A stretch of DNA of 42,154 nt, from positions 1 through 42,154 of IMG/VR virus record IMGVR_UViG_3300045886_000013; one strand, 5' to 3'. Shown here piece by piece: positions 3,757-40,556 of the stretch. The notes below the pieces were generated by a model, which made no database searches, was not told the origin of the DNA, and saw nothing but the letters and a program-made list of their open reading frames with translations. The stretch is from a virus. Each line of letters opens with the position of its first letter. Position 1 is the stretch's first letter. Position numbers and translations under genes: made by a program.

Positions 3757-4317
3757 ATGGGCTTCGATCTCAACGGCACTCAACTGACTGCCACCCAAGG
3801 CTTTGAAGTGATGTCGGGGGCTACGCAGTTTCTGCGGATTACGCCTGCCGGTCTGTTCCGACGCAATGCCATGCAGCCGATGTTCCGCGCCGGAAATTCC
3901 GGCACCGCAGCCGGTGTTGCCTATGGTACGACTGCTTGGACTGCGATCAATTTCAACGCCACCAACGTCAATGTCGGGTCATGCTTCAACACCAGTACGC
4001 GGCGCTTCACTGCGCCGGTCGCCGGAATGTACCTGTTCAGTGCATCGGCATATTACAACACCCCCGCTACGGCGGGCGTGAACTACGCTCACGGCATGTT
4101 CTGGGTCAATGGCGATAGTGTCGGGAGGCGACCCGGTGGGCCGCAGCACAGGCTATATACGCATGGGCTGACGCAGGGATACAGCGGCGACAACGATAGC
4201 ACCGAGATCATTCCGCTTCTCGCGGGCGACTATGTGGAGTTCCGCAATGCTGCCGCAGGGACCGATCTTGCGATTGTTCCGCAATACTCGCGCTTTGAGG
4301 GGTATCTGTTGGGCTGA
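3757..4317 (+). CDS. C1q/jelly-roll-like putative receptor-binding protein, copy 2
   Basis: 186 residues, starting directly after the stop of copy 1. It has the same architecture as its neighbour: N-terminal beta segment (DLNGTQLTATQGFEVMSG), a core with RRFTAPVAGMYLFSASAYY, the LLAGDYVEFRNAA strand and the terminal SRFEGYLLG. The loop between the core strands (HGMFWVNGDSVGRRPGG region) differs from the other copies, as expected for specificity loops. The stop overlaps the start of copy 3 (TGATG), so the copies are probably translated together. Paralogy with the flanking genes is visible in the sequence; the receptor-binding role is inferred. Confidence 0.6.
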   Translation: MGFDLNGTQLTATQGFEVMSGATQFLRITPAGLFRRNAMQPMFRAGNSGTAAGVAYGTTAWTAINFNATNVNVGSCFNTSTRRFTAPVAGMYLFSASAYYNTPATAGVNYAHGMFWVNGDSVGRRPGGPQHRLYTHGLTQGYSGDNDSTEIIPLLAGDYVEFRNAAAGTDLAIVPQYSRFEGYLLG

Positions 4318-4871
4318 TGGGACTTGATATCAACAACACGACGCTGACGCAGGCCAGCGGAACACTCACCATCAACACGGGTGTAACAACCTCTCTCACG
4401 TTGGCGGGTGCGCTGATGCGACCGAACAATGCGCTGTTCTCAGCCAATGGACCGGGCACTTGGACCTATCTGACCGCAGGGGCATGGAACAAGCTTTCGA
4501 TGCCGAATGTCATCATCAACGCCAGCAATTGCTATAGCGGTGCAAGTGCAAGGTTTACTGCGCCGGTCGATGGGAAATATGCGTTCCAGCTTGCTTTGTA
4601 CCTTCTCAAGGATGAAGCCCCTGCTGACCGTTATTTCCATCCGATCTTCGCCGTGAATGGCGCAATGGGCGGGCGCACGGTCAATCCTTCCTACCCTGAT
4701 TATCGATTACGCGGCCACGGCTGGGGGATAGCCGCTTACTTTTGGGGCAATCTCTCTGAAAATTATGATCTCCTCGCTGGTGATTACGTCGAGCCTTACT
4801 CGTACTCATCGTATGCCACCAATCGCTGGTATCCGGCAAACTCCCGCTTCACCGGCTTCATGATGGGATAG
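4317..4871 (+). CDS. C1q/jelly-roll-like putative receptor-binding protein, copy 3
   Basis: 184 residues, coupled to copy 2 by a TGATG overlap. It keeps the N-terminal MGLDINNTTLTQASGTLTI strand, the core ARFTAPVDGKYAFQLALYLL, the LLAGDYVEPYSYSS strand and a terminal SRFTGFMMG equivalent to EGYLLG in the others. It is the most diverged of the three, with a longer loop rich in Tyr, Arg and His before the GDY strand. It is the last gene of the fibre cassette. Function as an alternative or additional host-recognition tip is inferred from fold and context. Confidence 0.58.
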   Translation: MGLDINNTTLTQASGTLTINTGVTTSLTLAGALMRPNNALFSANGPGTWTYLTAGAWNKLSMPNVIINASNCYSGASARFTAPVDGKYAFQLALYLLKDEAPADRYFHPIFAVNGAMGGRTVNPSYPDYRLRGHGWGIAAYFWGNLSENYDLLAGDYVEPYSYSSYATNRWYPANSRFTGFMMG

Positions 4872-4875
4872 GACC

Positions 4876-5172
4876 ATGCCGACCATCACGATCATACTGA
4901 CCGACGCAGAGATGAAAGCACTCGAATATGTAGCGGTGGACCCGGTGGAGTGGGTCACCAACTTCACCAAGAACCGCTGTGAAGCTGCCATGCAGGAAAT
5001 ATACGAGAACGAGATAAAGCGGCTGAATGCAGACCCAGATGTCGAGAGCATCCCAGCCGATCCGGCTGAAGTGTTGCGTAACGCCCCAATCGTGAGCGCA
5101 GCCGAACGCCAAGCGGAGTTTCTGGCTAACCCGCCAATCCCACCCATTGAGCCAGAAGGAGAGAAGCAATGA
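4876..5172 (+). CDS. Small conserved tail-region protein of unknown function
   Basis: 98 residues following the fibre cassette with only four bases between. It opens with a short strand (TITIILTDAEMKALEYVA), then an amphipathic helix containing DPVEWVTNFTKNRCEAAMQE, and ends in an acidic Pro-rich tail (NPPIPPIEPEGEKQ). Proteins with the DAE-KAL-Y-A-DP-EW pattern occur next to phage tail-fibre genes; their function is not known to me. Position suggests an assembly or structural accessory role. The stop overlaps the next start by four bases. Confidence 0.6.
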   Translation: MPTITIILTDAEMKALEYVAVDPVEWVTNFTKNRCEAAMQEIYENEIKRLNADPDVESIPADPAEVLRNAPIVSAAERQAEFLANPPIPPIEPEGEKQ

Positions 5173-5342
5173 TTGGTGATCCAGAAAGGCCAGACAGCAC
5201 CGAAGAACCACAGACGCCACCTCCTGCTCCCAATGAACTGCCACCGGAGGAGCCGGAAGAGGAAGAGGACGGCGAAGAAGAAAGCGGAGACGCTGGCGAA
5301 GGGGATGCGGGTAACGATCCCGGCACGCGCGATCCAAGATAA
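5169..5342 (+). CDS. Very acidic Pro-rich small protein
   Basis: 57 residues from an ATG that overlaps the previous stop (ATGA). More than a third of the residues are Asp or Glu, including a run around EEPEEEEDGEEES, with Pro-rich flanks. No fold is predictable and the protein is probably disordered. Highly acidic small proteins in phage late operons can be scaffolds, DNA mimics or chaperones, but nothing here discriminates between these. The next gene starts 12 bases downstream with no own promoter visible. The call as a real gene rests on tight coupling and uninterrupted frame. Confidence 0.5.
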   Translation: MIGDPERPDSTEEPQTPPPAPNELPPEEPEEEEDGEEESGDAGEGDAGNDPGTRDPR

Positions 5343-5354
5343 GGACTAAAAGCC

Positions 5355-7094
5355 ATGACTGACATGAGGCATGCTGCCCAACAAGTGGCGGCACGGGGAA
5401 GGTTTGGCGACACCATGCTCCTGCATGTGTCACCGGCTGAGTTGGAGGGCATTGCCTCGCTCATTCCCGGTGGTCTGACCACCAACCCTCAAACAGGTTT
5501 GCCGGAAGCATTCTTCTTCCTGCCTTTCTTGGCATCCCTGTTCGGGGCTGCTGCTCCTGCCGCTGCGGCGGCAACGGCAGCGGCTCCAGCCTTGGCGGCG
5601 GGGGCCGGGGCAGCGGCAGCAGGAGCAGGAACGGCGGCTGCTCTTGGTGCGCCAGCCGCCGCTATGACGGCTGGCACGCTCGCTTCGGCAGCGGCTCCAG
5701 CCATCACGACCGGACTTGGCACGGTGACCGGAGGGCTGGGCGGTCTGATGAAGGGTGTCGGTGCGATAGGCAAAGGCATCGGCTCCCTGTTTGGTGCCGG
5801 TCAGGCTCCAGCGGCACAGGTTGCAGGGAATGCGATCCGCCATGTCGGAGGTGCCGGTTCGGCAGCAGCCAACTTTGCTCCAGCGGCAGGATCGTTTGCC
5901 GCCATGCATCCGCCGATCACCGCCGCGACGATGGCCCCGGCGGCGCAGACGGCAGTCAAGACAGCCGTCACACCTCCAGCCAAGGGTGGCATCCGTGGAC
6001 TGTTCACCATGAAGAACCTCCCGCTACTGGCAGTCGGGGCGCAGGGTCTGAGCAACATGGTGGGCGGTCTGTTCCAGAAGAAGGAGAAGGGCGAGAAGTC
6101 CCGCGACATCTCCAAGATCAAGTACAGCGGTGGCGATGCCAGCTTCCCAGAGCGGGCAGAGAGCGCCGCCTATCGCGAACACAACTACTTCCCCAACTAC
6201 CAGTACGCCCAAGGCGGCATCGTCACGCTGGCCGATGGCGGCATGGTCGATCCGCAGATGCAGCAGCCGCAGGACTTGAGTTTCCCGATGGCGGGCGTTC
6301 CCGCTGGCGGCACCGATGAAGCCCCGGCGCTGGAGGACATTCCGTCCAGCCCATATCCCACATCACAGATTGGCACAGAGCCGGAACCCACTGGAGAGAC
6401 GGCGGAACCCACCACCGACAATGACCGCGAACTGATCGCCCAGACGGTCGAGGTGATACAGGGGAAGATACCGCCACAGGATGCCCAGCCGATCATCTTG
6501 TCCTTCGTGCAGGAGTTCGGTGAACCGGCGCTTCAGGACTTGGCGGCACGGGTCAAGGCAATGCCGAAGAGTGAAGGGCGCAGCGATGGCATGTCGGACA
6601 GCATCCCGGCAATGATCGACGGCAAACAACCCGCCGCCCTCAGTGAGGGCGAGTATGTGGTTCCCGCCGATGTGGTTTCAGGAATGGGCAACGGCTCCAC
6701 CCAAGCTGGTGCGCAGGCGCTCGACGGCATGGTGGGCGATGTTCGCACTGCCAGAACCGGTTCGCCACAACAGCCACCGCAGATGAATACCGGAGGGCTG
6801 GTCAGTTCCTACGCCCAAGGCGGCATCGTCGGACTGAAGAAGGGCGGCAAGGTCAGGGTCGAGGAAGTCCCGGTGATCCTGAACTACGGAGAGCAGCGGC
6901 TTCAGGAACAGATGGAGCCGCGTGACGTGATCTGGGGCGAACCCGATCTGATCAACCGGTCCCGCCTGCAAGGGATTTTCAGGGACTACAACATCCCGGC
7001 TCAAGCCATTCCCGGCACCGGTTACACGGAAGAATGGGCAAAGGGTCAGGGTGCATATCAAAGGGCCATGCGCGAACTCGCCCGTGGCAGATAG
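5355..7094 (+). CDS. Internal virion/structural protein with Ala-rich hydrophobic region
   Basis: 579 residues. The N-terminus MTDMRHAAQQVAARGRFGDT followed by HVSPAELEGIASL resembles a structural protein recurrent in podovirus-like phages. Residues of about 50-130 are an Ala/Gly-rich hydrophobic stretch that could insert in a membrane during ejection. Two YAQGGIV...GG motifs (near 6205 and 6815) match motifs in the next two large virion genes. A C-terminal segment (EVPVILNYGEQRLQEQMEPR onward) is better folded in appearance. It is part of the block that precedes the giant ejection protein. An internal or ejected virion role is inferred; no enzyme motif is seen. Confidence 0.62.
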   Translation: MTDMRHAAQQVAARGRFGDTMLLHVSPAELEGIASLIPGGLTTNPQTGLPEAFFFLPFLASLFGAAAPAAAAATAAAPALAAGAGAAAAGAGTAAALGAPAAAMTAGTLASAAAPAITTGLGTVTGGLGGLMKGVGAIGKGIGSLFGAGQAPAAQVAGNAIRHVGGAGSAAANFAPAAGSFAAMHPPITAATMAPAAQTAVKTAVTPPAKGGIRGLFTMKNLPLLAVGAQGLSNMVGGLFQKKEKGEKSRDISKIKYSGGDASFPERAESAAYREHNYFPNYQYAQGGIVTLADGGMVDPQMQQPQDLSFPMAGVPAGGTDEAPALEDIPSSPYPTSQIGTEPEPTGETAEPTTDNDRELIAQTVEVIQGKIPPQDAQPIILSFVQEFGEPALQDLAARVKAMPKSEGRSDGMSDSIPAMIDGKQPAALSEGEYVVPADVVSGMGNGSTQAGAQALDGMVGDVRTARTGSPQQPPQMNTGGLVSSYAQGGIVGLKKGGKVRVEEVPVILNYGEQRLQEQMEPRDVIWGEPDLINRSRLQGIFRDYNIPAQAIPGTGYTEEWAKGQGAYQRAMRELARGR

Positions 7095-25658: not shown

Positions 25659-26541
25659 GCTCCTTCATGTGCCGCCACTGCTCACACCACTTAGCTACGC
25701 CGCAATAATCCCCGTCACAGCGGACCGATTTGCCGGGACGGAACTCTACCTTGTAGCCATTCTTCCTTTCCTTGAGATGTTCCTTGGCCTCGGCCTCGTT
25801 GAAGAACACCCGTGCCGCCTTCTTACTCCCTTCCTTGATGACCGCCCATTTGCTGTCGCGCATCCAGCGTTCCTCATCGGAGCAGTAGGGCAGCGGCACC
25901 CCGATCTCGTGCAGCATCTCCGTCTCGCGGTGCAGCCTGACCCGCTCGCGCAGGTAATTCTCCTGTCGCTTGACGGACCACAGCGGCACCTTCAACCTGA
26001 CCACCGGAGCCACCGGATACATGGCATCCATCGCTGCCTGCGTGCGCTGCCAGTCGCGGACGATGGCGACGATCTGCAATGCCGCGATCCTGAACTCCGG
26101 CTTGTTGCAGTGAACCAGATAAGCGAGAAGGTTCAACTGGTTGATCCACTCCGGCTTGACCTCCTCCTGCATCAGGGCGAAGGCGGTGGTCACCTTGTAG
26201 TCGGACAAGACCAGACCATCGATGGTGATCTCCTGAAGGTCGATCATCCCCGACACCTTCCAGCCATCGATCTCACAGGCCAGCCGCTCTTCGACAAGCG
26301 TTGGGGTGGAAGCCCCCATCTCCAGAATGTGGTGGACAGCGGAGCCGAACAGCGCCCACCACTCCTCCGAAATATCTTTCTCCATATCCACGAAGTGCGC
26401 CTTGCGCAGCATGTCGATGCGCGGCGGCTGGATCAGTTGTGTCACCGACCGGTGCACGTCGCCCTTGTTGTACTTGTCGTTGTTGACATAGGCTGCGCGG
26501 ACAATGGTGTCCGGCAGATTGAATTTGTTGGTGTACTTCAC
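25621..26541 (-). CDS. PD-(D/E)XK exonuclease, RecB/Cas4-like
   Basis: 306 residues from GTG 26541, chosen over a longer GTG start at 26613 because it follows GGGGTAGG and gives the usual N-terminus VKYTNKFNLPDTIVRA of this phage family. Motifs: His70/His71 in ALFGSAVHHILEMG, Asp101 in VSGMIDLQEI, and Asp114/Lys116 in LVLSDYKVTT, together the RecB-family active site. The C-terminus has two Cys (CDGDYCGVAKWCEQW), possibly an iron-sulfur or zinc cluster as in Cas4/AddB-type nucleases. It likely resects DNA ends for the annealase in the same operon. Confidence 0.8.
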   Translation of the reverse strand: MKYTNKFNLPDTIVRAAYVNNDKYNKGDVHRSVTQLIQPPRIDMLRKAHFVDMEKDISEEWWALFGSAVHHILEMGASTPTLVEERLACEIDGWKVSGMIDLQEITIDGLVLSDYKVTTAFALMQEEVKPEWINQLNLLAYLVHCNKPEFRIAALQIVAIVRDWQRTQAAMDAMYPVAPVVRLKVPLWSVKRQENYLRERVRLHRETEMLHEIGVPLPYCSDEERWMRDSKWAVIKEGSKKAARVFFNEAEAKEHLKERKNGYKVEFRPGKSVRCDGDYCGVAKWCEQWRHMKEHDNDQAEQGGAG

Positions 26542-26618
26542 TGCCCTACCCCGCTGGAAAATTTGATCGCCGGGACTGGTGGATATTTCTCCCGGCTCAT
26601 GGTTTGATAACACGACAG

Positions 26619-26649
26619 TTCATAGCATCAGACCCATGAAGAATGTCAA
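26619..26649 (-). promoter_or_regulatory. Promoter of the recombination/integration operon
   Basis: On the minus strand a perfect TTGACA (26649-26644) is followed after 19 bases by TATGAA (26624-26619) preceded by TG at the extended -10 position. Initiation near 26612 would give a leader of about 70 bases to GTG 26541. The element overlaps the 5' end of the divergent RusA-like gene. Confidence 0.45.
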
Positions 26650-27058
26650 GGCAAGGAAAAAACAGAACCTTCTCGGGCGTGAGGTTCCATGGACCAAGGT
26701 GATCCTCGGTCAGCCACATAGCAAGGCGAACTCCCGCAAACTGGTACACGTCAACGGCAAAGTCCGTTTCATCAAAAGCGATGAGGCGTTGGGTTACCTG
26801 AGTGCGTTCGCCATGCAGTGTCCGACGCTTGATCCCATGTTCCTTGGGGATGTCCATGTCGAACTCGAAATCTACTACACGAGCCGACGCCCTGACCTTG
26901 ATGAAAGCCTCATCCTCGACGCCCTGCAAGGACGTGTCTACGTCAACGATAGACAGGTCCGTAAGAAGACAGTCACCGGGCTGGTTGATCCACAGCGACC
27001 ACGAACAGTCATCCGTGTATCGTCTCTGGAGGGGAGTGATCGGCCAGTCAGTCCGTGA
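26636..27058 (+). CDS. rusA: RusA-like Holliday junction resolvase
   Basis: 140 residues from ATG 26636; a GTG at 26699 would give a 119-residue protein nearer the E. coli RusA length, so the start is uncertain. The conserved block is RRPDLDESLILDALQGRVYV followed by NDRQV, holding the acidic residues that bind metal in RusA, and earlier ILGQPHSKANSRKLV typical of phage RusA. It cuts four-way junctions as a dimer. It is divergent from the nuclease operon and completes the recombination set. The C-terminal 23 bases overlap the next gene. Confidence 0.8.
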   Translation: MKNVKARKKQNLLGREVPWTKVILGQPHSKANSRKLVHVNGKVRFIKSDEALGYLSAFAMQCPTLDPMFLGDVHVELEIYYTSRRPDLDESLILDALQGRVYVNDRQVRKKTVTGLVDPQRPRTVIRVSSLEGSDRPVSP

Positions 27059-27260
27059 CATCTACGAGGGTGACCCACGGGCGAGGGATGAGGTCTTTGC
27101 ATGGCTGGCCAGCCCTGACTTCGATACCGTCTGTTACTTGGCAAACGTGCATGTCGAGGACATGCGCAACCAGATGACCACGCTGGCTGGCCTGCCGATT
27201 TCGCTGGCCAAAAAGTACGGTCGCCTTCTCAGGGAAAAGATCAACCAGAAAGAAAGCTGA
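27036..27260 (+). CDS. Small hypothetical protein downstream of RusA
   Basis: 74 residues from GTG 27036, placed just after GGAGGGGA, a strong Shine-Dalgarno inside the RusA gene; longer in-frame readings lie wholly within rusA. The protein reads VIGQSVRDIYEGDPRARDEV, then CYLANVHVEDMRNQMTTLAG and a basic helical end (KKYGRLLREKINQKES). It looks fully alpha-helical. No family recognised. It is the last coding unit before the long non-coding, hairpin-rich interval. Confidence 0.55.
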   Translation: MIGQSVRDIYEGDPRARDEVFAWLASPDFDTVCYLANVHVEDMRNQMTTLAGLPISLAKKYGRLLREKINQKES

Positions 27261-27267
27261 CTATCGG

Positions 27268-27297
27268 TTGACAGCCTTCCGTGCAGGGGTGAAAAAT
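27268..27297 (+). promoter_or_regulatory. Putative promoter of the structured RNA
   Basis: A perfect TTGACA (27268-27273) is followed after 18 bases by AAAAAT (27292-27297), which matches four of six -10 bases. Initiation would fall near 27304, just before the first stable hairpin of the non-coding interval. Confidence 0.45.
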
Positions 27298-27303
27298 CAA
27301 GCT

Positions 27304-27640
27304 ACGGTGTAGAGGGTCCAATCCCCTCCGTCCGGCGCATACGCATAGCCAGTCCCGCCTATAGGGACCGAACCTTGGGATCAAGACCGAGGGGAACGAC
27401 CGTCGTTGGTCACCGTCGATTGGGCAATCGATCATTCACGGGAGACTACGTGCAACTCGTAGCCAGCATGATCCGTGGGCGCAGGGTTAACCATCCGACT
27501 GTGTGGAACTTAGGACTTCACACGAGGTGCCGCTGGAAACGTTCGGAGGGGAAGACGACCCCGTGGCAATCACCCCCTTTAACCCCAGAATGCGCGACGG
27601 GAAACTTCGCGCTGTTCTCTGGGGGGTAGGGGGGGTCGTG
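27304..27640 (+). ncRNA. Candidate large structured non-coding RNA of unknown class
   Basis: The 437 bases between 27261 and 27697 hold no credible gene but a dense run of stems. These are 27312-27328 (5 bp, 7-nt loop), 27352-27368 (5 bp, 7-nt loop), 27385-27411 (GACC/GGTC enclosing AACGA/TCGTT), 27416-27431 (6 bp, tetraloop), 27446-27462 (5 bp, 7-nt loop) enclosed by CACGG/CCGTG (27437-27441/27473-27477), 27501-27523 (7 bp with one bulge), 27528-27568 (TGCC/GGCA enclosing GGGG/CCCC), and a long C-run/G-run stem 27572-27636 capped by GCGCGA/TCGCGC. Hairpins, not codons, explain the sequence. It does not match tRNA, tmRNA, RNase P or group I intron signatures that I know. Ends are approximate. 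Confidence 0.5.
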
Positions 27641-27697
27641 GCTTAAGAGGGTGCCGGAAGGGATAACCGGTAGCGAAGCGAAAAAAAAGGAAACACG

Positions 27698-28084
27698 GTG
27701 GGAAAATATGGGAAGGGGAAAAGAGTGGGCTATAGGGATAACTGCGTCCAAAAAAATCTGTTTGAACAACCGGTGGTCACGCTGACAATCCAGTTGACCA
27801 TCTGGTTCTTTAATGATGGAGAACGAGACAGGTTTTTCCCGACACTGGACAAGGCAGAGGCTGCGGCATTCGAGTTCCTTAAGGGACAGGATGAGTGGAC
27901 GCAGATCGATATCGAATGTTGCGCCACACCACGTCTGACTAATGATGCTATCTGCGTCATGCTTGGTGAAGATAGCGGGTGGATGGTTGGACGGCGTGTG
28001 TTTGAGAGCGCCACCAAAGATGGCGAGATCATCGAAACAGATTATTCGAAAGACGCCAAGGCACCTGACGTATGGCAGAGGTAG
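27698..28084 (+). CDS. Hypothetical protein
   Basis: 128 residues starting at GTG 27698 after AAAAGGAAACACG. The first 18 residues are basic and glycine-rich (GKYGKGKRVGYRDN). The rest is a compact alpha/beta protein with TLTIQLTIWFFNDGERDRFF, AEAAAFEFLKGQDEWTQI, and MLGEDSGWMVGRRVFESATK. No catalytic motif is visible. A later in-frame GTG at 27774 is possible and would remove the basic segment. It follows the structured interval and may share its transcript. Confidence 0.5.
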   Translation: MGKYGKGKRVGYRDNCVQKNLFEQPVVTLTIQLTIWFFNDGERDRFFPTLDKAEAAAFEFLKGQDEWTQIDIECCATPRLTNDAICVMLGEDSGWMVGRRVFESATKDGEIIETDYSKDAKAPDVWQR

Positions 28085-28089
28085 GCAAG

Positions 28090-28254
28090 ATGTTCCTGCA
28101 CAATTGTTACTGCGGAAGATGGGGTGCCTTTGGTTTCGGCGTGTTCAAGGACAAGCCGGGTGTGTGGTTGTGTGCCGAGCACAAGGTTGAAGGCCGGATG
28201 ATGGAAGACCTTGGGTTGTTGGCCAGACAGAAATCTAAATTGTCCGGAAGTTAG
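28090..28254 (+). CDS. Small Cys/His putative zinc-binding protein
   Basis: 54 residues. ATG 28090 follows AGAGGTAGG at good spacing; ATG 28072 in the same frame overlaps the upstream gene and lacks a site. The sequence FLHNCYCGRWGAFGFGVF then WLCAEHKVEG gives a C-x-C ... C-x2-H set that could bind one zinc ion. Small zinc proteins of this sort are frequent in phage early regions and may act as inhibitors or adaptors. The stop codon lies inside the 5' arm of a long hairpin. Confidence 0.5.
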   Translation: MFLHNCYCGRWGAFGFGVFKDKPGVWLCAEHKVEGRMMEDLGLLARQKSKLSGS

Positions 28255-28296
28255 GAGGTTAGTTCACACGCCTACGGGTGAGAACTTACCTCCTAA
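28251..28296 (+). terminator. Long hairpin overlapping the stop of the small zinc protein
   Basis: Two 19-base arms (28251-28269 and 28278-28296) pair at 17 of 19 positions around an 8-base loop. The arm ends TTAGGAGG/CCTCCTAA are perfectly paired, and an A-rich then TTATTCTTT stretch follows. It could terminate transcription or protect the mRNA end. The stop codon TAG is within the 5' arm. Confidence 0.5.
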
Positions 28297-28382
28297 AACA
28301 TTATTCTTTAAGATCAATTACTTATCTGGCTCTTTGGGGTTTTCCGTATAAATAACGGTAATCGTTATCTCATTCATCTGTG

Positions 28383-28550
28383 ATGCGGAAAGGGCCGGTT
28401 GATAAATCACCGGGCCGGGAATACCGTCGAACAATCCGGTCCATCGGTTCGGGATGGCTCCTCACCGAAGGATCGGAGCGGGCGGGACAATAACGCAAGT
28501 CACCCTGCGAACGGGGGCGTCAGGTGTAGCGACTGCCCCGCCCATCCCTT
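28383..28550 (+). ncRNA. Structured leader or small RNA candidate
   Basis: No open frame of coding character is visible. Stems seen: 28393-28416 (GGCCGGT with GA / TC with ACCGGGCC, one bulge each side), 28457-28479 (GCTCC/GGAGC), with CCATC/GATGG at 28441-28457 as an alternative, and a closing helix GGGCGGG (28480-28486) / CCCGCCC (28537-28543) with AGTC/GACT inside (28498-28501/28531-28534). Mutually exclusive stems suggest a switchable leader for the secreted small protein at 28624. Class unknown. Confidence 0.4.
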
Positions 28551-28590
28551 CTCCCTGTCTGGTTTTCTTGGCGGTTTTCCAGACAGGGAG
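28551..28590 (+). repeat. Perfect 12-bp inverted repeat upstream of the small secreted-protein gene
   Basis: CTCCCTGTCTGG (28551-28562) and CCAGACAGGGAG (28579-28590) are exact inverted repeats around a 16-base U-rich loop; the stem extends to about 16 bp with one mismatch. It ends 33 bases before ATG 28624. There is no T tract after it, so an operator, attenuator or RNA-stability element is more likely than a simple terminator. Confidence 0.6.
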
Positions 28591-28623
28591 GAGGCTTCCC
28601 CATAACAGATGAAGGAGAAACAA

Positions 28624-28818
28624 ATGAGACTGCTACTTATCACGCTTGCGCTGTGCTCTGTCACAAACGCACAGGCGGCATCGACTTGCTACCTCTATGA
28701 CGGCGACGACTACTGGAACTGCCTGCGCGAAGAGTGGGCGGACGAGCAGGAGCGGGAGGAACTGAAGGAGGAAATCAGCCGGGAGATTGCAGAGCAGCTT
28801 GAGGAGGTGCTCGACTGA
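28624..28818 (+). CDS. Small secreted protein
   Basis: 64 residues from ATG 28624, preceded by the stereotyped AAGGAGAAACAA ribosome site. The N-terminus MRLLLITLALCSVTNAQA is a textbook Sec signal peptide with likely cleavage after AQA. The mature part holds two cysteines (TCYLYDGDDYWNC) that could form a disulfide in the periplasm, then a highly charged helix (EEWADEQEREELKEE onward). A structured leader and a 12-bp inverted repeat precede it, suggesting controlled expression. A role in envelope modification, superinfection exclusion or lysis is possible but unproven. Confidence 0.6.
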   Translation: MRLLLITLALCSVTNAQAASTCYLYDGDDYWNCLREEWADEQEREELKEEISREIAEQLEEVLD

Positions 28819-29081
28819 TGGCTATCGCGGGCGGGTACGTGGATGACAAGGTGGTGCGGGCACGCAAGATGCTGCGTGACGGAATGAGCCTACAGGAAAT
28901 GGCTCCGGCACTCGGATACAAGGAGGGATCAAGCGTGCGGATGTACCTCATCCGGATGGGTTTGCCCTTGCCATCTATCAAGGGTACAAGGCATAGACCG
29001 TCCTACTCGGACGATCAAAAGCAAGTGCGATCCCAGAAGATGAAAGAGTGGCATGCGAACCGCAAGTTGAGGAGTGGCTGA
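28818..29081 (+). CDS. Small HTH DNA-binding protein
   Basis: 87 residues, starting at the A of the preceding stop (TGATG). Residues of about 10-50 (VVRARKMLRDGMSLQEMAPA, then LGYKEGSSVRMYLIRMGLP) form a helix-turn-helix of the sigma-region-4/resolvase type with Gly between helices. The basic C-terminus (KKQVRSQKMK-like, NRKLRSG) could add DNA contacts. It is translationally coupled to the secreted-protein gene and to the next gene. A regulatory role in early transcription is inferred. Confidence 0.55.
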   Translation: MAIAGGYVDDKVVRARKMLRDGMSLQEMAPALGYKEGSSVRMYLIRMGLPLPSIKGTRHRPSYSDDQKQVRSQKMKEWHANRKLRSG

Positions 29082-29881
29082 TGCATGAGAAGAGCAGGCA
29101 TGACAGAAGCTTTGAGATGGTCACGGCGGCGGACCCGACTGACCAGTTCCACAGGGTCCGCATTCGATGCAGCGCAAGGGATTGCGACCGCACGATGATC
29201 TACTCGCGGCGAGGAGCGATCAATCCCATCGCTGCCGCGAAGTGGTTTCGGGATAAGGGATGGGGAGTGGGTGGACATCAGCGTGCCGACCGCTGCCCCG
29301 AACACTGGAGGGGTGAAGACATGGGTAAGAGGGCCAATGGTGGTGCGAACATCAAGACCAAGCACACCGACATCCGGACAGATACGGCGATACCGCCGCC
29401 CGTCACGTTCGATGACATGAAAATTTCTACCGGAAATTTGCATGCTTCCACGGAACAGATTATGCCAGAGGCTCCGGTCAGTCTGTCCATGAGTAGGGCA
29501 GATAAACGTATCATTTACAATAAGTTAGACGAAGTATACGCGGACGAAACCACTGGCTATCGGGGGCACTGGAACGATGAGAAGGTCGCGACTGATCTGG
29601 GGGTTCCGAAGGAATGGGTTGCGGCCATTCGTGAGGATACCTTTGGTCCAGAGATCAACCGTGAGAAAGAGAAGGCGGAAGTGGACCGTCTGGTGCGGGA
29701 GATCATGGATCGGTCCATGACCTACAACACCAGTCTCATGGAAGTCCAACTGAAGATAGAGGAATACGGTAAGCTATCGGAAACGTTGGATAAAAAGCTT
29801 GATGATTTTGAAACCAAGGTGGCTGCGATGACCGCCTTGTTTGCGCAGTTCGATGAAGCAGTAAAGGAACTGAAGGCATGA
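29081..29881 (+). CDS. Zn-ribbon and coiled-coil phage protein
   Basis: 266 residues from ATG 29081 overlapping the preceding stop and following TTGAGGAG. The N-terminal 80 residues carry RIRCSARDCDRTMIYSRRGA and AAKWFRDKGWGVGGHQRADR followed by CPEHW, a Cys/His ribbon pattern found in phage proteins near primases. A middle segment has RADKRIIYNKLDEVYADETT and EKVATDLGVPKEWVAAIRED, resembling a winged-helix or ParB-like end. The C-terminal 90 residues are a long coiled coil (KIEEYGKLSETLDKKLDDFE). DNA binding is likely. It overlaps the next gene by four bases. Confidence 0.55.
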   Translation: MHEKSRHDRSFEMVTAADPTDQFHRVRIRCSARDCDRTMIYSRRGAINPIAAAKWFRDKGWGVGGHQRADRCPEHWRGEDMGKRANGGANIKTKHTDIRTDTAIPPPVTFDDMKISTGNLHASTEQIMPEAPVSLSMSRADKRIIYNKLDEVYADETTGYRGHWNDEKVATDLGVPKEWVAAIREDTFGPEINREKEKAEVDRLVREIMDRSMTYNTSLMEVQLKIEEYGKLSETLDKKLDDFETKVAAMTALFAQFDEAVKELKA

Positions 29882-36384: not shown

Positions 36385-37048
36385 TTGTTTCTCCTGATAT
36401 TTGTTCATTGACTGACCTGACTGTCAGCCTTTGCGCTGCTTGGATTGCGGCTTGCTTGTCTGTCCTGAAGGAACAGAGTTGCTCACCCAGTTTCGACTGG
36501 CCGATCCAGCCGTTCACTTGTCCCTTCTCGCTGATGCCGTAAGCGACAGCCTCGTAGAGCCTGACATGCGGCACATTGGTCCGGTACTCGACGGCTGACA
36601 GGATGATGTAATCATTCTGGACCAGCCGATTGTGGTCGTAGATGTTCTTGAAGACATTGCGATACCACATATGCCCTACGCACAGCGTTACTGTAGGCTT
36701 GGAGTATCGGTTAATCCCCTCCTTGTATTCACATGTTCCTGTGTCTTTTCCTCCTACGATAATTGTTTCGTTGAACTTGCGCTTGCTACATATGTCCGTC
36801 AGGCATCTCTTGATATCCTTCTCGGCATTGAGAGCGAAGCTTTTCTTGACTTGCAAAGGATCAGCGGAGCGGTCCCGCTGTCCCTTGCGCATCAGCTTCA
36901 TGCGCTCACAGAGCCCCCTGATCTCGTGCTCGACGTTCCACGATTTGCCGCGCCTTACGTCTTTGATGTCGGCGCTATACGCCGACATCATCCGCTTGAG
37001 TGTCCTGATATCCTTGAAGGTCAGGACTGCCCTCTCACGATCCATCAT
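36377..37048 (-). CDS. Unknown protein in the MoxR/VWA cluster
   Basis: 223 residues; ATG 37048 overlaps the stop of the VWA gene (TGATG). The N-terminal half is basic and helical (FKDIRTLKRMMSAYSADIKD, ERMKLMRKGQRDRSADPLQV) with scattered cysteines. The C-terminal half is beta-rich (YKEGINRYSKPTVTLCVGHM, YIILSAVEYRTNVPHVRLYE) and ends with GQSKLGEQLCSFRTDKQAAI. No motif recognised. Coupling to both neighbours suggests it is made with the VWA protein and the ParB-like protein. Confidence 0.5.
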   Translation of the reverse strand: MMDRERAVLTFKDIRTLKRMMSAYSADIKDVRRGKSWNVEHEIRGLCERMKLMRKGQRDRSADPLQVKKSFALNAEKDIKRCLTDICSKRKFNETIIVGGKDTGTCEYKEGINRYSKPTVTLCVGHMWYRNVFKNIYDHNRLVQNDYIILSAVEYRTNVPHVRLYEAVAYGISEKGQVNGWIGQSKLGEQLCSFRTDKQAAIQAAQRLTVRSVNEQISGETNG

Positions 37049-38319
37049 CACGACACCGCGCTGATCGGATCACGAAGCGAGAGATAGGTACCGAAGGGAG
37101 CAATGTCCGGACCCGTCGCCGCCCACAGAACCGGGAAATCCGGTGCCTCTTTCACGGACGGGAAGTCATTGATCCCCATGTCAGTGAAGCAGATCATCCA
37201 GTCGATCTGTTCATCGAAGGTATTGACCTTCTCGAATGACGGACGGATGCATGTGCCGCCACGGTGAGTGATCTTCAGGTGGTCGAAGGTATCGCCCTGT
37301 TCCCACTCATCGACACGGTGGACGTGAGTGTCATGCTGCATGATGTACAGCTTGTCCGGGTTGCAGATTTCCACGACGCCAGCGATCTCGGTGATGTACT
37401 TCACCAGTTCCTCGTTGCTCACGGAACCGGATGTGTCGATGGAGATGACGCCAGTGCCGCAGCCGTTCAACTGCATGGACGGAGTGACCAGACCGTAGAG
37501 GCCCAGCATCTTCTTGTTCGGGCGCTTCCAAGTGTAATCGTCCGGCACCTTGCCGCTCACCCATTGCTGGATGTACGCCTTCCAATCGACAGTCGGCTTG
37601 CCGACAGCCTTGACCAGACCTTCAAGAGCGACCGGCAGCTTGCCGATTGACTTGGCTGCTTCAGCGGCCTGCACCACCTTGATCTTGATCTCCTCTTCCA
37701 GTTCGCGCTTCTCGGCATCGCTCATCGGCGTGCCGTCATCGTTGCGCGGCTCCATGACGGTGCCCCACAGAGGCGTCTTGCCATCCTTGCCCTTGTCTCC
37801 CTTACCCGGTTGCGGGGGAAGCTTGCCGTTGCCTTCGCCATCATCGCCATCGGGGCATGGGCGTCCCAGAGTGATACGCTTCGGCAAATCCGGACGGTTT
37901 TTGATCAGGTCATCATAGATCGCATCGACCAACCAATCCTTGTACTTCGGCTCAAACAATGCGTCGGATGGCAAGGTCAGACCGGCATCCAGAACGATGT
38001 GATTGATCGCGTAATCACAAGCGATGTTCCAGATCAATGGGTCACGGGCACCGCGCCGAAGGCAGTGCATGAAGACAACGTGCAGAACCTCGTGACAAAT
38101 CACGCCGACCGTCTCAGCGACAGTCAGCTTGTCCGTGAACTCTTCGTCCCACCAGATATGACGGCCATCCGTGGCCATCGTATTGATCTCTGGCATGTGG
38201 TCTTCGGTCGCGTTCCTGTAGAGAAGGCCAAGCGCGACGATTGAGAAGAACGGGTGCTTGAGCACCAGCTTGGTCTTTGCCTTGGTGATTTTCTCTTCAC
38301 CATCTGTGATCAATGACAT
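37048..38319 (-). CDS. Metallopeptidase-VWA protein (DUF2201-like), partner of MoxR ATPase
   Basis: 423 residues. The N-terminal domain contains VGVICHEVLHVVFMH (His76, Glu77, His80), a zinc metallopeptidase HExxH as in the putative metallopeptidase domain that precedes VWA-like DUF2201. A Gly/Lys/Asp-rich linker (about 155-200) follows. The C-terminal VWA-like domain has the MIDAS signature VISIDTSGSVS (Asp295, Ser297, Ser299), HRGGTCIRP for the MIDAS Thr and CFTDMG for the distal Asp380. Such proteins work with MoxR AAA+ ATPases. It starts after AGGAGAAACTCAGC, 39 bases below its own -10 element. Confidence 0.75.
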   Translation of the reverse strand: MSLITDGEEKITKAKTKLVLKHPFFSIVALGLLYRNATEDHMPEINTMATDGRHIWWDEEFTDKLTVAETVGVICHEVLHVVFMHCLRRGARDPLIWNIACDYAINHIVLDAGLTLPSDALFEPKYKDWLVDAIYDDLIKNRPDLPKRITLGRPCPDGDDGEGNGKLPPQPGKGDKGKDGKTPLWGTVMEPRNDDGTPMSDAEKRELEEEIKIKVVQAAEAAKSIGKLPVALEGLVKAVGKPTVDWKAYIQQWVSGKVPDDYTWKRPNKKMLGLYGLVTPSMQLNGCGTGVISIDTSGSVSNEELVKYITEIAGVVEICNPDKLYIMQHDTHVHRVDEWEQGDTFDHLKITHRGGTCIRPSFEKVNTFDEQIDWMICFTDMGINDFPSVKEAPDFPVLWAATGPDIAPFGTYLSLRDPISAVS

Positions 38320-39407: not shown

Positions 39408-40499
39408 TCAGATGAGGATTTTTGTCAACGTGGACAGCTTAAACTCTGTCATCTCCTTCAGGTCGTTGACTTCCGGATGCCGCTGCTGGACATCCTTGGC
39501 CCACATGGCGACGAATTCCTTGTTGGGCATGCGCTTCAGGTACTTGATGATCTGCCCAAGGTTCTTCTTGTCCGCCACCTCAACAAGGTTCGCCATCAGC
39601 ATGTAGTTCACGTCGGCATCGCGATCCCCGAAGACCGGCACACCTTCAGGGTCTTTCACAACATCCTCGGCACTCGGCAACCGGTCTTCGACCTTGACCC
39701 ATGCAAGGAACTGCGAAGCCATACCCTCACCAATCTGGCCATACAGACACTCGGTCAGGATGTGCGGCGCATGGCCCATCTTCAGGAGTTCCGAAGTCCG
39801 CTCCCAAGAACGTGGTGACGGGAAAGCGTTGACGCCGACTTCGAACTTGTGAAGGAACGCCGGGTTCTTCTGGACAAAGGCACGGACCCAACGATGCAGA
39901 CCGCGCTGGTTGGCGTAGTCATTGAAGTCCTTGTGGTCCGCTTCGATGTTGATGAACATCAGACGGTCCCTCAAGTGCATCGGCATGGTGGTCGTACCGG
40001 CCTTGTTCTCAGGCTTGTTGCCGGTGCAGCAGATGGTGATGCCGTGAGAAATCGGATGTTCGCCAACCCGGTACTCGTTGACGATCTGGCTGCAAATGTT
40101 CTGGTTGGCCAGAAACGCCTGCATCAGTTCGTCAAGGTTCCAGATACCGACAACGCCTTCCGGAGTACGTGGATCAGGCAGATAATCGGGGCGTGCCCGG
40201 ATCACACGCTTCTCAGTGTAGCGGCGGATTTTTCCCTCGTCGTCTTCCTCTTCGAAAACCACGTCTGTGGGAATGCCGAAGCCACCCATTTCGCCAGCGT
40301 CATACTGAGCGATGATGGTGGTGTGAAGAGGAACGCCCTCTTCGGCGGCAACCTGATTGGGAATGGAAGTCTTGCCGACACCGGGATCACCGATGAAGCA
40401 AGGAATAATGAAGTGCTTATGCGAAACACCGGCCAGATGTTGGTCGATGTTGTACTTGAGAATGGTGGTAAGCAGGGTCTTGGCGTCGGAAATTTTCAT
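39408..40499 (-). CDS. MoxR-family AAA+ ATPase
   Basis: 363 residues from ATG 40499, after CAGGAGAAACAA; an in-frame extension upstream passes through the promoter. Walker A is GDPGVGKT (37-44), Walker B is VGIWNLDE (Asp123, Glu124), sensor 1 is CCTGNKPE (Asn161), and HLRDRL holds the likely arginine finger; the C-terminal lid contains SWERTSELLKMG. This is the MoxR subclass, which remodels partner complexes together with VWA proteins such as the one encoded downstream. It is the first gene of the triad, with a strong promoter about 60 bases upstream. Cellular target unknown. Confidence 0.82.
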   Translation of the reverse strand: MKISDAKTLLTTILKYNIDQHLAGVSHKHFIIPCFIGDPGVGKTSIPNQVAAEEGVPLHTTIIAQYDAGEMGGFGIPTDVVFEEEDDEGKIRRYTEKRVIRARPDYLPDPRTPEGVVGIWNLDELMQAFLANQNICSQIVNEYRVGEHPISHGITICCTGNKPENKAGTTTMPMHLRDRLMFINIEADHKDFNDYANQRGLHRWVRAFVQKNPAFLHKFEVGVNAFPSPRSWERTSELLKMGHAPHILTECLYGQIGEGMASQFLAWVKVEDRLPSAEDVVKDPEGVPVFGDRDADVNYMLMANLVEVADKKNLGQIIKYLKRMPNKEFVAMWAKDVQQRHPEVNDLKEMTEFKLSTLTKILI

Positions 40500-40556
40500 T
40501 TGTTTCTCCTGAAACGTTTCTTTATAGTCGGACCGGTTTTTTGTCGTCCGGCCCAA

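Follow-up and report, generated by a model that had tools for sequence, protein, structure and literature searches.

The 74-aa and 128-aa genes of this phage, both read rightward, are separated by 437 bases (27261-27697), and the question is whether this gap is transcribed into a structured RNA and, if so, of what kind. The window is the whole stretch of DNA analysed, the 42,154 bases of virus record IMGVR_UViG_3300045886_000013. By coordinate arithmetic its overlaps with two further records (G001 and G003) join the three into a circle of about 77.9 kb, and the window is therefore roughly half of the phage. An initial annotation had described the gap as gene-free and hairpin-rich, with the look of a large structured RNA that could be related to GOLLD or ROOL or form a new class. 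Full-text searches of the literature covered large RNAs of phages, the discovery of structured RNAs and phage hairpins between cistrons; none of the papers listed named the phage or the candidate domain (RNA1, Table 1).

Table 1. Coordinates of the candidate domain RNA1, its predicted parts and the surrounding features.
Feature	Position	Strand	Remarks
RusA-like resolvase gene	26636-27058	+	PHROG match; 3' end overlapped by 74-aa gene
Upstream gene, 74 aa	27036-27260	+	No PHROG or Pfam match
RNA1, candidate structured RNA domain	27256-27679	+	MFE -181.6, z -3.42, 0/120 shuffles, well-defined ensemble
P1 closing helix, 5' strand	27261-27285	+	10+7+3 bp with 27652-27673; pair probabilities 0.94-1.00
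Promoter-like TTGACA-18-AAAAAT	27268-27297	+	10/12 consensus; overlaps P1 5' strand
P2, 5' strand	27299-27306	+	Pairs with 27637-27644, p 0.93
P3 rod, 5' strand	27314-27340	+	5+9+7+3 bp within 27527-27561, p 0.73-0.99
Multibranch head on P3	27341-27526	+	Five hairpins/arms, predicted fold
P4, C-run/G-run hairpin	27572-27636	+	GAAA tip possible (p 0.56)
P1 closing helix, 3' strand	27652-27679	+	Pairs with 27261-27285; extra pairing 27256-27258/27677-27679
A8 run and Shine-Dalgarno-like AAGGA (27687-27691) of 128-aa gene	27681-27697	+	Predicted mostly open
Downstream gene, 128 aa, GTG start	27698-28084	+	No PHROG or Pfam match
Five intercistronic elements	L105:4016-4092, 4264-4333, 4585-4661, 4991-5069, 5286-5359		Same phage, outside window

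The gap sequence is probably non-coding. All three open frames of at least 60 aa that touch the gap were scored for codon use, against a reference of -0.351 +/- 0.280 bits/codon off frame (n=415) and 0.260 +/- 0.119 on frame (n=83). The frames 27375-27629(+) and 27241-27435(-) scored -0.336 and -0.361 bits/codon and are off-frame-like. The third, 27518-27769(-), which runs antisense into the 128-aa gene, scored -0.021, and coding there is compatible with codon use. None of the three had a PHROG or Pfam match at E <= 1, and tblastn of 27375-27629(+) in phages gave no match. A coding gene in the gap was rejected on these grounds, the antisense frame being ambiguous; the gap is thus gene-free as first described as far as two of the frames are concerned, with a reservation for the third.

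The flanking proteins have few relatives. The 74-aa protein resembles stretches in Wolbachia phage WO (8 records at E <= 1, the best 38% over 45 aa, E 4e-4) and had no match among 385 genomes at E <= 1e-4. The 128-aa protein was found in viral_contigs only in the sister contig described below, and weak similarities of 34-37 residues occur in some RusA loci (E 0.007-0.036; E 0.003). Primase relatives in genomes lie in rhizobia-like bacteria at seven of eight loci. Elsewhere in the window, the protein at 37048-38319 is an HNH endonuclease by PHROG (phrog_1314) and a DUF2201 putative metallopeptidase with a VWA-like domain by Pfam; an ATPase-family gene (39408-40556) follows two genes later.

The minimum-energy fold closes the entire gap end to end, as a rod of P1, P2 and P3 with P4 as a side hairpin. 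P1 is made up of the blocks 27261-27270/27664-27673, 27275-27281/27655-27661 and 27283-27285/27652-27654. The head on P3 is predicted to contain hairpins at 27352-27368, 27373-27392 and 27398-27411, an arm at 27415-27499 and a further part at 27500-27524, and it includes a T-loop-like hairpin, CUACG-UGCAACU-CGUAG (27446-27462). A second T-loop-like hairpin, GAGGG-UCCAAUC-CCCUC (27312-27328), competes with P3, and forcing it costs 11 kcal/mol. RNA1 starts at the upstream stop codon. Its 3' end lies 7 nt ahead of AAGGA and 18 nt ahead of the GTG, AAGGA itself being six bases before this start codon. The predicted unpaired probability in the linker is 0.91-0.99 at 27682-27689 and 0.86-0.96 at 27690-27695, and it is 0.70-0.80 for 27686-27703, which includes the start codon. 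As a leader hiding the next start site RNA1 does not qualify, the single predicted fold leaving the ribosome-binding site uncovered. No plus-strand terminator-like site was found between the two genes.

Taken as a whole, RNA1 has the properties of a stable structured domain on one strand; the head alone does not. Its energy relative to dinucleotide shuffles is given in Table 1, and the minus strand reaches only z -1.44. Repeat runs gave z -3.28 for 27261-27697 (0/100 shuffles) and z -3.07 (0/60), and segments shifted by 100 nt gave z -0.97 and -0.58. The mean base-pair distance of the ensemble is 42, compared with 102 +/- 31 in the shuffles, none of 120 being as low. Helices that match P1 in strength close 38 of 40,000 segments of random start and span and 7 of 5,961 segments of fixed span. 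The z value is not unique: similar or lower ones occur in other windows of the phage. A sample of 100 windows of 424 nt from the record had a mean z of -0.92 (sd 1.18; 20 shuffles each) and included one at -4.84 and one at -3.37, so that RNA1 would rank about second or third; seven windows sampled elsewhere in the phage, mostly in a hairpin-bearing region (L105), had z -4.2 to -10.9. The segment at -4.84 (27721-28144; 20 shuffles) is mostly coding, lies directly 3' of RNA1 and has a strong fold of its own. A scan of 280 windows of 300 nt, a length too short for P1, placed no window starting inside the gap among its best 20; the leaders were those starting at 28351 (z -5.61) and 28201 (z -4.26).

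The fold signal resides in P1, the P3 rod and P4, and the head is the least supported part. The P4 region alone (27568-27640) has z -4.40 (0/200 shuffles) and P3 with the head z -2.48 (2/200), whereas the head alone has z -0.19, which 80 of 200 shuffles reach. The stems named in the initial annotation are all present (GTCCC-7-GGGAC at 27352-27368; CACGG/CCGTG around CTACG-7-CGTAG at 27446-27462; the C-run/G-run helix at 27572-27636). Since the head is no better than shuffled sequence, most of the hairpins first noticed fall in an energetically unsupported part. Their abundance is ordinary: the gap holds seven five-bp hairpins, a number that 29 of the 300 shuffles and 44 of the 191 windows of equal size also reach. 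The three hairpins with 7-nt loops that had drawn attention do exist and are moderately unusual (5/300 shuffles, 10/191 windows). The two T-loop-like hairpins compare with 0.085 expected and are reached by 2 of 1000 shuffles, for a motif picked post hoc, and by 3 of 418 windows, counting windows over RNA1 itself. The proposal of a structured RNA is accordingly upheld by fold energy, definition, strand bias and the fit from gene to gene, and not by the multibranch head.

Structured spacers are found elsewhere in the same phage. A second gap, 28368-28618, is statistically stronger than RNA1 (z -6.42 on the plus strand, -6.19 on the minus strand). Its closing helix has 23-nt arms that are 87% complementary. 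The next gene, which is small and signal-peptide-like, starts at 28624, and its Shine-Dalgarno sequence (28612-28617, unpaired probability 0.19-0.22) is paired by this helix. This gap had no blastn match in phages, none in 297 genomes, and only identical copies and weak matches in 212 loci. Upstream of it, a hairpin at 28251-28296 (19-nt arms, 89% complementary, without a T-run) lies at the stop codon of a 60-aa gene, and 28241-28341 has a sub-threshold Rfam match to traJ-II (26.3 bits, cut-off 40, E 0.031).

The five intercistronic elements at L105 are better supported than RNA1. Each has an outer stem AAATTGC/GCAATTT, a conserved internal loop, a variable, covarying tip stem and a small invariant hairpin. 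Across the five copies 11 of 24 predicted pairs have two-sided compensatory changes, and the five pairs of the small hairpin, which takes in part of the Shine-Dalgarno sequence GAGGAG, never vary. A covariance model of the five (R1) had no match in the window and found a further candidate in a two-gene spacer of another phage (L193:16703-16781(-), E 2.6e-7); its other matches in 39 sources were the same hairpins read on the opposite strand, plus one weak match in L122 (E 0.055). The elements had no match among 199 genomes of a Rhizobium-centred order. Also at L105, an inverted repeat with 59-nt arms (76% complementary) and a 19-nt direct repeat occupy 6690-6875.

Leaders of about 370-390 nt, one in this phage (L105:3040-3405) and one in G005 (L112:16795-17192), are apparently homologous and share CGGAAAGCCGGATGGCTCCCG and GCTGTGAAG; that of G005 has z -3.55, and neither had a blastn match in phages or plasmids. 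G005 is the nearest long relative of the phage (62% identity in a 642-aa structural protein, 61% in the primase), and no match to RusA or to the two genes flanking RNA1 was detected in it. Its leader was considered as a relative of RNA1 and rejected, only TTGACA followed by GGGG being common to both by eye and the folds being different. Four analogous two-hairpin spacers, each with the Shine-Dalgarno sequence inside the second hairpin, lie between small genes of G005 (L112:17755-18870); their sequence is unlike that of the five L105 elements.

The reading preferred here, tentatively and at something short of even probability, is that RNA1 is a structured intercistronic domain of an early polycistronic mRNA which leaves the next Shine-Dalgarno sequence open. 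It is favoured because the edges of the domain coincide with gene edges and a shift of 100 nt removes the signal, because stability and definition of the fold are strand-specific, and because P1 is rare and the linker predicted to be mostly open. It is favoured also because the flanking genes are co-directional with no plus-strand terminator-like site between them, and because the same phage has other structured spacers, both 28368-28618 and the five elements. The occurrence of such spacers and leaders elsewhere in the phage makes control at the RNA level credible. The rod would form once the 3' strand of P1 has been transcribed, and it could then hold back ribosomes at termination so that they do not run on into the following start site. 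The open A-rich linker would keep that site available and allow independent translation of the 128-aa gene. RNA1 may in addition shield the mRNA or mark a processing point between the two cistrons. The start site lies outside the domain, and any effect in cis would therefore be indirect. Against this reading stand the single sequence with no diverged homologue, the z value that is not unique and the unsupported head.

The main rival, an unlikely one, is a stand-alone, large structured non-coding RNA; excised from the early mRNA, it would act in trans and be an orphan representing a new class. The closed end-to-end fold with its low-diversity ensemble, the two T-loop-like hairpins and the mostly open linker at the 3' end are all consistent with it, and GOLLD and ROOL may act likewise, by analogy. 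Both are often encoded near tRNA islands, a tendency rather than a strict requirement, and their hallmark is a homo-oligomeric cage. What speaks against a stand-alone RNA is the outcome of the searches for relatives, known families and tRNAs, together with the head, which folds no better than shuffled sequence, and a length below that of GOLLD and ROOL.

An identical copy of RNA1 is present in IMGVR_UViG_3300045944_000157, a sister contig of the same phage (identity 100% over 17.5 kb and 99.99% over 10.4 kb), and for covariation across diverged homologues this identical copy is all that was found. In phages blastn gave nothing at E 1e-5 and three 25-nt matches at E 5, and in plasmids nothing at E 0.1. 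Searches of 212 loci (2.27 Mb) with blastn and nhmmer returned identical copies only, apart from weak blast matches in five loci. Three of 20 virus records matched at E <= 10, one being the identical copy and two matches of 14-22 nt. Seven of a further 20 genomes and records gave short matches of 15-29 nt at E <= 1; the sole one examined, which was the best and lies in G037 (E 4e-4), falls in a protein-coding frame. The 14 relatives of RusA other than the sister contig had no blastn match to 27001-28700.

Two samples drawn from the order and the class of a Rhizobium genome gave two matches among 397 genomes at E <= 0.001 and none among 385 at E <= 1e-4; these samples may overlap, and where a listed genome had more than two first-look candidates, scoring was limited to two. 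Both matches (L220 and L221) are isolated single blocks, of 27 and 44 aligned columns, and the one in L221 sits in a 494-aa open frame. Two exact-pattern searches of viral_contigs found the sister contig only. A third found seven contigs, the sister and six without flanking similarity by eye, unaligned; two of the six (L223 and L226) are identical in sequence, and this sequence seems by eye to be the antisense of tRNA genes. With R2, a covariance model of the head, the window and its copy were recovered, and the other matches were 9.9 bits, E 2.8, at L222 among 74 sequences and 14.5 bits, E 0.63, in G021 among 39 records; the model is confined to the head, whose fold is no better than that of shuffled sequence, and the result is a weak negative.

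The Rfam search suggested in the initial annotation found no family at its cut-off in the gap or in 28368-28618. Seven matches were obtained at E <= 10, and the only two that overlap the gap are sub-threshold matches to animal RNAs (mir-647, 20.6 bits against a cut-off of 93; TTC28-AS1_3, 18.1 bits against 55). Group I and II intron, tmRNA, RNase P, ribozyme and riboswitch families were absent from these matches. ARAGORN reported no tRNA or tmRNA in the window or in eight further stretches of the phage and G005. The first impression that the gap does not match tRNA, tmRNA, RNase P or group I introns is borne out by these searches. Half a tRNA or tmRNA was also rejected, the T-loop-like arm having no acceptor partner by eye and both ARAGORN and Rfam being empty. 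The suggested kinship with GOLLD or ROOL finds no backing, neither family appearing even at E <= 10, with no tRNA found and a shorter domain. RNA1 is a single-sequence candidate without diverged relatives found, and a new RNA class cannot therefore be claimed. The more specific idea that it is the first member of a class of end-closed, T-loop-bearing, trans-acting phage RNAs of about 420 nt, released from the early operon, is quite improbable.

It is also improbable that there is no RNA function at all, the gap being GC-rich spacer DNA whose fold arose by chance or acts at the level of DNA, as a recombination remnant or a site for replication or packaging. The ordinary hairpin count, the unsupported head, the similar or lower z of other phage windows and the single sequence with no diverged homologue found agree with such a spacer, but the fold is well defined and strand-asymmetric and its edges match gene edges.

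The TTGACA reported ahead of the hairpins is present (27268-27273) and could belong to a promoter from which the 128-aa gene would be transcribed with a long structured 5' leader starting at about 27304, a reading judged improbable. The match of 10 of 12 positions is the sole one found in 26000-29500, and both the phage and G005 have a structured leader, of about 370-390 nt, ahead of another gene. Chance matches are nevertheless expected (shuffle mean 1.8), and the second hexamer is AAAAAT. The promoter also conflicts with the fold, because a start at about 27304 removes the 5' strand of P1 and leaves 27304-27679 with only z -1.84 (4/120 shuffles).

In retron RNAs the a1/a2 repeats form an end-to-end closing helix, which P1 resembles, but an unrecognised self-splicing intron or retron-like RNA is highly improbable: the reverse transcriptase domain PF00078 was absent from all four records searched (G000, G001, G003 and G005; 4 of 14 control genomes matched), for which reason a retron was rejected, no intron, tmRNA or ribozyme family is among the Rfam matches, and no interrupted gene was seen.

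Among known systems, GOLLD is like RNA1 in being large, elaborate and phage-encoded, RNA1 being a candidate non-coding RNA. According to PMC12286853, many GOLLD members exceed 800 nt, and the ROOL described there has 659 nt. RNA1 differs from GOLLD in its length of about 420 nt and in having no Rfam match, no nearby tRNA found and no diverged homologues found. It shares with ROOL the character of a large structured RNA of phages and prophages with unknown function, and differs in being shorter, without Rfam match and with no nearby tRNA found. If its fold is real and conserved, RNA1 would join the few large phage RNAs of unknown function. Like the structured intercistronic regions and leaders of phages, RNA1 fills a co-directional gap beside a ribosome-binding site; it is much longer than a simple stem-loop and leaves the Shine-Dalgarno sequence uncovered. 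The five elements at L105 are likewise structured stop-to-start spacers of the same phage, but they are about 75 nt long, repeated and covarying, with part of the Shine-Dalgarno sequence predicted to be paired, and they offer the better-supported ground for testing RNA control of phage operons.
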